DNA of 64,000 nt from an uncultured Chlorobiaceae bacterium (GTDB taxonomy: Bacteria > Bacteroidota > Chlorobiia > Chlorobiales > Chlorobiaceae), in contig CAIMPI010000016.1 of assembly GCA_903843305.1 (NCBI GenBank), positions 62,001 through 126,000 on the forward strand, in the 5' to 3' direction. This document shows, piece by piece, positions 50,012-53,720 of the stretch. Under the pieces are notes generated by a model, which saw nothing but the letters and a program-made list of their open reading frames with translations, ran no database searches and was not told the DNA's origin. A program made the translations under genes and the position numbers. Position 1 is the stretch's first letter, and each line of letters begins with the position of its first letter.

Positions 50012-51994
50012 ATGGAGCAAGTTCAACTCAACTGGATCGCAAACTTTATCTGGGGCATTGCGGACGATGTGTTGCGCGACCTCTATGTTCGGGGCAAATA
50101 CCGCGACGTGATTCTGCCAATGACCGTGCTGCGGCGGCTCGACTCGGTGCTTGAGCCAACCAAGCGGGACGTGATCGAGTTGAAAGCTTCGCTCGACAAG
50201 GCGGGTATTATCCATCAGGATCAAGCCTTGCGGCAGGCCGCCGGGCAAGCCTTTTACAATACCTCAAAATTTAACCTGCGCGATCTTCGTGCCCGTGCAA
50301 GCCAGCAACAGCTTAAGGCCGACTTTGAGGCTTACCTTGATGGCTTTTCTCCGAATGTTCAGGATATTCTCGAAAACTTTGAGTTTCGCAACCAGATTCC
50401 ACGTCTTTCGAAGGCTGACGCTCTTGGAACGCTGATCGAGAAGTTGCTCTCGTCCGACATTAACCTGAGTCCCTATCCAGTCCTGAACGGTGACGGTTCA
50501 ATAAAACATTCCGGTCTCGACAACCATGCGATGGGTACCATCTTTGAGGAGCTTATCCGTCGCTTTAACGAGGAGAACAACGAAGAGGCGGGCGAACACT
50601 GGACACCGCGTGACGCTGTCAAGCTCATGGCAAAGCTGATTTTTCTGCCAATTGTTGATGTTATCCAGTCGGGAACCTATCTCCTTTATGACGGAGCCTG
50701 TGGTACCGGCGGCATGTTGACCGTTGCCGAAGAGACCTTGCGGGAACTTGCCACAGCGCATGGGAAACAGGTTTCAACCTACCTCTACGGTCAGGAGATA
50801 AACGCCGAAACCTACGCCATCAGCAAAGCCGATCTGCTGCTCAAGGGCGAAGGCGAAGCGGCGGATAATATTGTCGGCGGGCCCGATTACTCAACACTCT
50901 CCAACGATGCTTTTCCATCTCGCGAGTTTGACTTCATGCTCAGCAATCCACCCTACGGCAAAAGCTGGAAAGGCGACCTCGAACGGATGGGCGGCAAACA
51001 GGGCATCAAGGATCCCCGATTCATCATTGAGCACGCTGGCGACCCTGAATATTCGCTGCTTACCCGTTCAAGCGACGGGCAGATGCTCTTTTTGGCCAAC
51101 ATGCTCAGCAAGATGAAGCACGAAACCAGACTTGGCAGCCGAATTGCCGAGGTGCACAACGGCAGCTCACTCTTTACTGGTGATGCCGGTCAAGGTGAAA
51201 GTAACATCCGCCGCTGGATTATCGAAAACGACTGGCTTGAGGCTATTGTTGCCTTGCCGCTCAACATGTTCTACAACACCGGTATTGCCACCTACATCTG
51301 GGTACTCAGCAATCGAAAGCCCGCACACCGCAAAGGCAAGGTGCAGCTTATCGACGCTACGCAGTGGTACAAGCCACTCCGCAAAAACCTCGGCAAAAAG
51401 AACTGTGAACTCTCCGAAGAGGACATTCAGCGCATCTGCGATTCCTTTCTCGCCTTTGAGGAAACCGAACAATCGAAAATCTTCCCCAACGCCGCCCTTG
51501 GCTACTGGAAAGTGACAGTCGAGCGGCCACTCCGCCTCAAAGGGATTGACCCCGAGCGAGTCTACTCACCCAAAGAGATCAAGTCACTCAAAGAGAGCGC
51601 CGGGCGGGGGAATGATGCTCCGCCGGTCATCAAAAAGATCTACAAGAGAGGCACTCATCCCGATCCGCTGAAAGGGCTCTTTACGGCCACCATCCAAGGC
51701 AAAAGCGTCGTTGTGGAATACGAGCCAGACCCCGACCTGCGCGATACCGAGCAGGTGCCGCTCCTTGAAGAGGGAGGCATTGAGGCCTTCCTCAAGCGTG
51801 AAGTGTTTCCCTACGCTCCCGATGCATGGTACACTGCGGAGAGTGTCAGGATTGGTTATGAAATCAGCTTTACCCGATATTTCTACAAACCAAAACCCTT
51901 GCGCACTCTCGAAGAGATCAGCGCCGATATCCTTGCGCTGGAGCAGGAGAGCGAAGGCTTGCTCAGCGAGATTATTGGAGGAGGCGCCGGGTGA
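50012..51994 (+). CDS. hsdM: Type I restriction-modification methyltransferase subunit HsdM
   Basis: This 660-residue N6-adenine methyltransferase is the modification subunit of a type I system. The N-terminal helical domain (NFIWGIADDVLRDLYVRGKYRDVILPMTVLRRLD) is followed by SAM motif I YDGACGTGGML (Asp227) and the catalytic NPPY at residues 312-315 (SNPPYGKSWKG). The C-terminal portion carries target-subunit contacts and is longer than in E. coli HsdM (about 530). It opens the island, with an inverted repeat upstream. Codon use appears more GC-rich than in the flanking photosynthesis genes. Confidence 0.95.
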   Translation: MEQVQLNWIANFIWGIADDVLRDLYVRGKYRDVILPMTVLRRLDSVLEPTKRDVIELKASLDKAGIIHQDQALRQAAGQAFYNTSKFNLRDLRARASQQQLKADFEAYLDGFSPNVQDILENFEFRNQIPRLSKADALGTLIEKLLSSDINLSPYPVLNGDGSIKHSGLDNHAMGTIFEELIRRFNEENNEEAGEHWTPRDAVKLMAKLIFLPIVDVIQSGTYLLYDGACGTGGMLTVAEETLRELATAHGKQVSTYLYGQEINAETYAISKADLLLKGEGEAADNIVGGPDYSTLSNDAFPSREFDFMLSNPPYGKSWKGDLERMGGKQGIKDPRFIIEHAGDPEYSLLTRSSDGQMLFLANMLSKMKHETRLGSRIAEVHNGSSLFTGDAGQGESNIRRWIIENDWLEAIVALPLNMFYNTGIATYIWVLSNRKPAHRKGKVQLIDATQWYKPLRKNLGKKNCELSEEDIQRICDSFLAFEETEQSKIFPNAALGYWKVTVERPLRLKGIDPERVYSPKEIKSLKESAGRGNDAPPVIKKIYKRGTHPDPLKGLFTATIQGKSVVVEYEPDPDLRDTEQVPLLEEGGIEAFLKREVFPYAPDAWYTAESVRIGYEISFTRYFYKPKPLRTLEEISADILALEQESEGLLSEIIGGGAG

Positions 51995-52006
51995 AATTGA
52001 TTGTTT

Positions 52007-52098
52007 CTACCAACATGCTATGCCTACGGCATTTAAAAGATGGAATGCTTGTATCTTGCGTTTTGTCTTTAAGCTCCGTAGGAGCGGCATGTTGGTAG
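52007..52098. repeat. 92-base structured palindromic element
   Basis: The outer arms CTACCAACATGC (52007-52018) and GCATGTTGGTAG (52087-52098) are perfect 12-base complements. Inside, two small hairpins are present, ATGCC-TAC-GGCAT (52020-52032) and GCTCC-GTA-GGAGC (52073-52085), each with five pairs and a three-base loop. The inner TTAAA (52033-52037) pairs with TTTAA (52068-52072). The element sits between hsdM and the RhuM-like fragment. The matching architecture with different stem sequences suggests selection on structure, as in REP/MITE-type repeats or a structured RNA. Confidence 0.75.
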
Positions 52099-52128
52099 CC
52101 CTATGAGGAATTTACAATACAGCAACCG

Positions 52129-52314
52129 TTGTGTATGAGAACTCTTGAAAACCGCTTTTCCGACTCTTTTTGTAGCGAAAAAAATGTCTCTGCACTGCAG
52201 AGACAATTGAGTTGGATCGGTCGGTACTTCCAGAACATTTACAGCGAGGGTGAACTGACCCGGCAGGCAACTGTTCAGGATTTCTTGACAGTTCGTAGCG
52301 AGGGGCTGTCATGA
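52129..52314 (+). pseudogene. RhuM-like N-terminal fragment coupled to hsdS
   Basis: This 61-residue frame contains IGRYFQNIYSEGELTRQATVQDFLTVRSEG, resembling the helix region near the N-terminus of RhuM-family proteins (NIxEEGEL followed by a x(F/Y)LTxxxxG motif). The rest of the family domain is missing. Its TGA stop overlaps the hsdS ATG by four bases (ATGA), so it could still be translated and couple hsdS expression. It may be a remnant or a small coupled gene; the family link is by eye only. Confidence 0.5.
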
Positions 52315-53720
52315 TGAATGAGCTGAAGCCTTATCCGGCATACAAGGATTCCGGGGTGCCTTGGCTGGGGGAGGTGCCGGAGCATTGGGTTCTTCTACGC
52401 ATGAAGACTCTGTTGCGTGAACGGGTGGAGAAGGGTTTTCCTGATGAACCTTTGCTTGCTGCCACTCAGACAAAGGGTGTTGTACGGAAGGAACAGTACG
52501 AGAATAGGACAGTTCTTGCTTTAAAGGACTTACATCTTCTCAAACTTGTTCGGTGTGGTGATTTTGTCATCAGTCTCAGGTCGTTTCAAGGTGGTATTGA
52601 GTTTGCCAGAGAGCAGGGGATTATCAGTCCTGCATATACGGTTTTATATCCGAATAACCTGCAAAATCAAGCTTTTCTTGCTTGGCTTTTTAAATCAAAG
52701 CCTTATATCGAGAATCTTTCCCTTTTTGTAACGGGTATTCGTCAGGGGCAGAATATCGACTACGAAAAGTTAAGCCGTTCAGCTTTAATCGTGCCAACAC
52801 TTCTCGAACAAGCCGCAATTGTCCGCTTCATCAATCATGCGGAGAGGCGAATCTGTCGCTTTATCCGTACCAAGCTGAAACTGATAAAGCTGCTGGAAGA
52901 GCAGAAACAGGCTATCATCCACCAAGCAGTTACTCGCGGCCTTGATCCCAACATTCGTCTCAAACCCTCCGGTGTCGAGTGGCTCGGCGATGTGCCGGAG
53001 CATTGGGAGGTGAGGAAATTGCGTTCACTTTTCAAGCTGCATGGTAGTGGGACAACTCCGCTTGGAGATGATTATTATGGTGGGGATGTCTCTTGGGTTA
53101 TGACTGGTGATTTACAGGATCGAGTGCTTTCCAGAACAAAGCGAACAGTTACTGACAAGGCATTGAATGAGGTAAGTGCGTTGCGCTTGTATCCTGCGGG
53201 ATCACTTTTAGTTGCAATGTACGGGGCTACCATTGGCAAAACAGGTATCTTGTCTATGGATGCTTGCACCAATCAAGCTTGTTGCGTTTTAGCAGAGCCA
53301 CGAGAGGACGGAAATGTTGTTTATTTTCAGGCAGTTGTGAATATCGCACGCCCTGAGTTGGTACGGCAGAGTTATGGTGGCGGTCAACCGAATATTAATG
53401 CAGATGTTGTTCGGTCACTTCGTATTCCAGTTCCTCCTAAAGCAGAGCAACACATTATTGTCGAGCAGCTTAAAGTGAAGGGAACATTTTTAGATGAAGC
53501 TGTTGCCCAAACTCAGCGAGAAATCTCCCTCATACGCGAATACCGCACCCGCCTGATAGCAGATGTGGTGACTGGCAAGCTTGATGTGCGTGAAGCAGCA
53601 GACAGGCTTCCCGTTGAAAGCGATGAGTCGGAGCTGGTGGATGAGGTTGAAACCCTGACCGAAGGTGACGAAGAGGTGGTTGACGGCCTTGAGGCTATAA
53701 CTGAGGAGGTGGAGGTATGA
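52311..53720 (+). CDS. hsdS: Type I restriction-modification specificity subunit HsdS
   Basis: This 469-residue protein has the duplicated HsdS design: two target-recognition halves, each opened by the same phrase (SGVPWLGEVPEHW at residue 14 and SGVEWLGDVPEHW at about 221), each followed by a variable domain and a conserved helix (LLEEQKQAIIHQAVTRGL; ISLIREYRTRLIADVVTGKLDVREAA). The sequence recognised cannot be read from the protein. The C-terminus is acidic. Its stop overlaps the next gene by four bases (ATGA). ATG 52314 is an alternative start. Confidence 0.92.
   Translation: MMNELKPYPAYKDSGVPWLGEVPEHWVLLRMKTLLRERVEKGFPDEPLLAATQTKGVVRKEQYENRTVLALKDLHLLKLVRCGDFVISLRSFQGGIEFAREQGIISPAYTVLYPNNLQNQAFLAWLFKSKPYIENLSLFVTGIRQGQNIDYEKLSRSALIVPTLLEQAAIVRFINHAERRICRFIRTKLKLIKLLEEQKQAIIHQAVTRGLDPNIRLKPSGVEWLGDVPEHWEVRKLRSLFKLHGSGTTPLGDDYYGGDVSWVMTGDLQDRVLSRTKRTVTDKALNEVSALRLYPAGSLLVAMYGATIGKTGILSMDACTNQACCVLAEPREDGNVVYFQAVVNIARPELVRQSYGGGQPNINADVVRSLRIPVPPKAEQHIIVEQLKVKGTFLDEAVAQTQREISLIREYRTRLIADVVTGKLDVREAADRLPVESDESELVDEVETLTEGDEEVVDGLEAITEEVEV

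Follow-up and report, generated by a model that had tools for sequence, protein, structure and literature searches.

Is the 92-bp palindrome between hsdM and hsdS a structured RNA or a mobile repeat of the REP or MITE kind, and, if mobile, which enzyme moves it? The first-pass annotation of this 64,000-nucleotide stretch of Chlorobiaceae DNA (the window) posed the first of these questions and left the decision to copy number. Its description of the palindrome held. The outer stem was perfect over 12 bp by direct reverse-complement comparison, CTACCAACATGC (52007-52018) being the exact reverse complement of GCATGTTGGTAG (52087-52098). Each arm contained a five-pair hairpin of its own, with stems that differed between arms (ATGCC-TAC-GGCAT at 52020-52032; GCTCC-GTA-GGAGC at 52073-52085), and Pfam agreed with hsdM upstream and hsdS downstream (Table 1). 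Folded as single-stranded DNA, positions 51990-52115 reached -23.2 kcal/mol (z = -4.95), a value matched by none of 200 dinucleotide shuffles; the predicted minimum fold held the outer stem and both hairpins, and the spacer added a further stem.

Table 1. Features of the palindrome and of the genes next to it (positions in the window).
Feature	Position	Strand	Remark
Complete REPIN-like doublet, 92 bp	52007..52098	-	GC-rich-half-first genus consensus reads on the - strand
Half-element B: tail CTACCAACATGCT + hairpin ATGCC-TAC-GGCAT	52007..52032	+	model R1 match, E 2.5e-8
Half-element A: tail CTACCAACATGCC + hairpin GCTCC-TAC-GGAGC	52073..52098	-	model R1 match, E 8.8e-9
Spacer between halves, self-complementary	52033..52072	.	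exceeds that of the usual 77-bp doublet
hsdM (HsdM_N + N6_Mtase)	50012..51994	+	Pfam; stop 12 bases before the element
59-aa ORF, overlaps hsdS start	52135..52314	+	between element and hsdS
hsdS (Methylase_S)	52311..53720	+	Pfam

The 59-aa ORF had no Pfam match; in a genus-mate (G073), a shorter frame with a similar C-terminal sequence filled the hsdM-hsdS gap. An AlbA/RecG-like gene and then hsdR followed downstream of hsdS. A transcript of the hsdM-hsdS gap could form a strong hairpin, with a putative effect on hsdS expression.

The window genome (2.59 Mb, 55 contigs, Chlorobiaceae) contained 62 half-elements at E <= 0.05 with model R1, a covariance model that covers the tail and hairpin of one half-element. 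They were arranged as 16 inverted doublets (32 halves) and 30 singletons. Among the 17 close pairs, 16 were inverted with tails outward and spaced 51-69 bp, one was direct, and none was tail-inward. Identity among doublets was 97% in the best pairs (median 84%), which would fit a largely old set of copies with some younger members. A direct sequence search of the same genome gave 36 matches, full-length or partial, of which the weakest were at chance level.

Related copies were present in genus-mates, and the named records sharing an exact 26-mer were mostly Chlorobiaceae MAGs. Exact 26-mers were also found in Chitinophaga, an Ignavibacteria MAG and a Bacteroidetes MAG, and the covariance model detected at least one copy of the unit in 176 of 395 sampled phylum genomes; the relatives elsewhere that the first-pass annotation had mentioned are therefore real. 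Plasmid and phage collections held nothing similar to the window copy.

Alignment of 40 doublets gave the consensus CTACCAAYATGCC[GCYCC TNC GGRGC]TTGAAAACAA..GAGCATTTTCTTAA[ATSCC GTA GGSAT]GRCATRTTGGTAG, in which the unit is a tail and a hairpin, CTACCAAYATnn[GCYCC-TNC-GGRGC], and the doublet is two such units inverted. The commonest doublet length was 77 bp, the window copy reaching 92 bp because of its longer spacer. The 40 doublets had CTAC at the 5' end and GTAG at the 3' end, with nine bases between GTAG and the hairpin; the GT[AG]G that known REPs have at the 5' foot of the hairpin was absent there, GTAG lying at the far 3' end instead. In the same alignment 93.3% of cells were paired, 9 of 21 pairs had changed on both sides, and the covariation score was reached by none of 500 shuffles. 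Sliding the partner by 1-3 columns lowered pairing to 34-44%. Pairing percentages are somewhat inflated, because rows were preselected (tails with <= 3 mismatches, >= 4 of 5 hairpin pairs). A pair count for half-elements was discarded as circular, its rows having been chosen for perfect stems. A single copy with neither homologues nor compensatory changes, which the first-pass annotation had named as the outcome that would count against its reading, was thus not what was found: the element was multicopy, had homologues, and showed compensation on alignment of its copies.

The element was a multicopy extragenic palindrome, as REPs and REPINs are, intergenic position having been checked for the window copy and the polymorphism loci. 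By pair orientation, fold and covariation it was also an inverted doublet with a spacer, forming one hairpin.

Many copies of the doublet lay within a longer imperfect palindrome (GAGGGGGG..TTCTTTG / AAACCAGCATAACCCGCCCCCCTCT). The 100-200 bp round the doublets at L005, L007, L009, L014, L015, L025 and other loci likewise formed a conserved, imperfect palindrome longer than the doublet itself (CCGTTACCACAAGAAAAA..GAGGGGG / CCCCCCTCTTTTTC..), which is possibly a larger composite element.

A structured non-coding or cis-regulatory RNA, with covariation produced by selection on the RNA, would also account for a strong fold, for covariation and for an intergenic place inside an operon. However, no Rfam family matched at its gathering score, copies lay on both strands, including between convergent genes, presence differed among relatives, and the copies included decaying singletons and long tandem arrays, all of which makes this explanation exceedingly improbable. 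Two Rfam matches, mir-9261 and MIR5638, were far under the gathering score and were taken as chance.

Presence of the element was polymorphic within the genus. At a conserved convergent gene pair (G000:C33:4697), it was absent in 17 of 20 aligned genus genomes; the carriers were the window genome with a half, G018 with a full doublet and G053 with an eroded half. No target duplication was evident at this locus, where the flanks were too divergent to place junctions. The hsdM-hsdS gap of G073 contained no element and was about 230 bp shorter than in the window, so that the difference exceeds the element alone, and this comparison yielded no clean junction. With 62 half-elements and insertion polymorphism, the choice left to copy number falls on a mobile, REP-like repeat.

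Insertion polymorphism, small size, many copies and terminal inverted repeats (CTACCAAC) would equally suit a MITE of an ordinary DDE insertion sequence. Yet partnerless halves were as common as paired ones (30 singletons vs 32 halves in doublets), the conserved hairpins were internal, the linked transposase (below) was of the HUH/Y1 type, and no target duplication was evident at the aligned locus, within the limits set by its divergence. A DDE-driven MITE is accordingly a very unlikely explanation. We regard the window feature as very likely a non-autonomous, REPIN-like mobile palindrome that is, or once was, spread by a subclass-1.2-type Y1/HUH transposase, an enzyme to which an activity on the unit is here ascribed from linkage and analogy.

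The unit was linked to a transposase gene across Bacteroidota/Chlorobi. In one genus genome (G015), a Y1 gene (ORF at C1:487369-487827, minus strand) lay inside an array of ~15 doublets, and one more copy adjoined the gene on its other side. This array (L083, G015:C1:484500-488500) was a tandem one with a period near 190 bp, resembling a BIME cluster. Across the phylum, linkage was assessed at 30 loci, which were the 30 best matches to one query and not a random sample. With a strict rule, fixed before the flanks were inspected, 17 units were found in 11 of 30 loci, vs 0.023 in shuffles. With a loose rule, set after inspection, 22 of 30 loci had units within <= 250 bp (44 units) and 12 of 30 had them on both sides, vs a shuffled mean of 0.175 units and no both-side loci in shuffles; no unit was found at the remaining 8 of 30. 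None of the 26 other Y1 loci of the genus, used as controls, had a unit within 250 bp. By eye, the flanks of the 30 loci had the same architecture. A Y1 gene between two inverted repeat copies, the arrangement that defines a REPtron, was found for the subclass-1.2-like enzyme only, orientation being read by eye. Lineage-specific unit variants clustered round their own gene: in G223 all 7 copies lay within about 2 kb of it, and in G192 3 of 4 lay near it. In G073 and G353 units lay beside the Y---Q--HH enzyme genes.

The Y1 gene in the G015 array encoded a 153-aa HUH/Y1 transposase with the motif Y---Q--HH, which was present, in place of Y---NP, in 29 of 30 enzymes at the best-matching phylum loci. 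The enzyme scored 95.5 bits against PF01797 (Y1_Tnp), 41.7 bits against NCBIfam REP_Tyr_transpos (below the cut-off of 80) and 66.7 against the IS200 model (above the cut-off of 55). Among PDB entries it matched ISDra2 TnpA (E 3e-9; entry 2xm3, which we take to be this protein). By NCBIfam scores and motif, it was not a class-2 RAYT. The first-pass annotation had proposed looking for a linked RAYT or transposase: a linked transposase does exist in relatives, and it is a Y1 enzyme with the subclass 1.2 signature instead of a class-2 RAYT. Y---Q--HH is the signature of TnpAY1 subclass 1.2 (PMC6006769), and its presence in 29 of 30 loci places the enzymes there by motif and not by the clustering used in that study. 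Members of subclass 1.2 are described as generally without typical terminal structures and as not sharing IS properties (PMC6006769); here, hairpin units lay <= 250 bp from 22 of 30 genes.

Homologues of the enzyme at E <= 0.001 were present in 180 of 395 sampled phylum genomes, with up to 9 matches per genome. The element occurred in 89 of 97 genomes with a close homologue (E < 1e-35) vs 87 of 298 others (odds ratio 27; Fisher p about 3e-29), counts and statistics both ignoring phylogeny. Counts were made among at most about 18 matches listed per genome, and the enzyme and element panels were assumed to be the same 395 genomes (same draw). Chlorobiaceae were an exception, as most of their genomes with five or more copies, the window genome included, were without the enzyme gene. 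The enzyme is thus unnecessary for keeping copies, because most element-bearing Chlorobiaceae do without it. The window genome had no match to the enzyme at E <= 0.001, unlike a REPtron, where the cognate enzyme is in the same genome. Because its own genome is without such a gene, the window copy is probably an orphan, as are probably the other copies of this genome. Some other enzyme could have moved the copies in the Chlorobiaceae clade.

A class-2 RAYT could be that mover, the subclass 1.2 link elsewhere then being a separate system. Besides being without a subclass-1.2-like gene, the window genome has two other Y1 genes, both class-2-like, and one of these (ORF at 1129) had a degenerate doublet (L030:88-164) upstream, at a distance of about 960 bp. 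However, no unit occurred at the 26 control loci mentioned above, the L030 gene goes with a different palindrome, and the one element array that surrounds a Y1 gene in the genus does so for a Y---Q--HH enzyme (G015), units also lying beside the enzyme genes of G073 and G353. We consider a class-2 mover improbable. The two class-2-like genes of the window genome were rejected as partners, neither having flanking units.

At L030 (G000:C41:40-3285; 765-995 and ORF 1129-1854), the class-2-like RAYT frame contained a palindrome-like sequence, aatgccgagctggagctcggcgttcccggg, and two partial duplications of the RAYT gene region lay upstream. This palindrome appears to represent a second REP family that has entered the gene for its own transposase, an arrangement reported for subclass 2.4 (PMC6006769).

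For the subclass-1.2-like enzyme, which we favour as the mover of the unit, a single-strand mechanism may be proposed by analogy with IS608, ISDra2 and RAYTs (PMC8266576). The element consists of two inverted units with tails outward, each made up of the CTACCAAYAT tail and then the five-pair hairpin with its three-base loop. The Y1 enzyme would recognise hairpin and tail on single-stranded DNA, its tyrosine would cut next to them, and the enzyme would rejoin the cut strand elsewhere; binding, cleavage and movement of the unit are all ascribed to it on this analogy. The enzyme gene is itself flanked by copies of the unit. As has been argued for REPINs (PMC3116915), a doublet would be the folded unit that moves as a whole, and singlets would arise by decay.

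The element shares with REPINs (Bertels and Rainey 2011, PMC3116915) inverted doublets with a spacer that form one palindromic fold, the coexistence of doublets and singlets, clusters and scattered copies, and a link to a Y1 transposase. REPINs, however, have GT[AG]G at the 5' foot of the stem and a class-2 RAYT, whereas here a five-pair hairpin was accompanied by a long CTACCAAYAT tail with the GTAG complement at the far 3' end, and the linked enzyme was of class 1. In REPtrons and RAYT-REP systems (PMC2817692, PMC8266576), as here, inverted repeat copies flank the transposase gene, stems show compensatory changes, and copies are concentrated near the gene in some genomes; their REPs are GT(A/G)G-headed, in contrast with the present units, and the present enzyme scored under the RAYT and over the IS200 cut-off. 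The element is REPIN/REPtron-like in its working and is kept outside the known REP families, because there is no GT[AG]G at the 5' foot and the enzyme is not a class-2 RAYT.

TnpAY1 subclass 1.2 (PMC6006769) agrees with the linked enzymes in Y---Q--HH, in similarity to IS200/IS605 transposases and in a Bacteroidetes distribution, but the genes here were framed by a hairpin unit that was also repeated in the genome. The GTAG- and CGTC-tagged palindromic superfamilies (PMC3733652) resemble the unit in being short palindromes outside genes that commonly form inverted dimers and end in a tetranucleotide tag. CGTC repeats were reported from Chlorobi and Bacteroidetes; their stems have 8-9 bp, whereas the present stems have five pairs and a CTAC-starting tail. 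IS200/IS605 elements (IS608, ISDra2) likewise have a Y1/HUH enzyme, as judged by sequence, and subterminal hairpins, but their ends are not inverted repeats, whereas most copies here had no gene and many were inverted doublets. The open-licence literature, searched for the hairpin sequence and for Chlorobi and Bacteroidetes REPs, contained no description of the repeat; an earlier description elsewhere is possible.

REPs and their transposases have so far been described mainly with GTAG-headed repeats. We think it likely that the present units form a REP system that spans the phylum and does not depend on class-2 RAYTs, with CTAC-headed units, a polarity opposite to that of GTAG REPs, and a subclass 1.2 Y1 transposase as the probable mover. 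A very common and apparently undescribed hairpin repeat of Bacteroidota/Chlorobi is now tied to a transposase subclass for which neither ends nor substrate DNA had been known, and one kind of small hairpin that recurs between genes in these genomes would thereby be explained. The link points to more than one origin of REP-like systems from single-strand transposases, and oligonucleotide substrates for a cleavage assay can be taken directly from the unit.

At many of the Bacteroidota Y1 loci L132-L157, the outer tailed units were accompanied by a second, inner hairpin pair near the start and stop of the gene, for example TGTGCC-GTTA-GGTACA upstream and TGTACC-TAC-GGCACA downstream.
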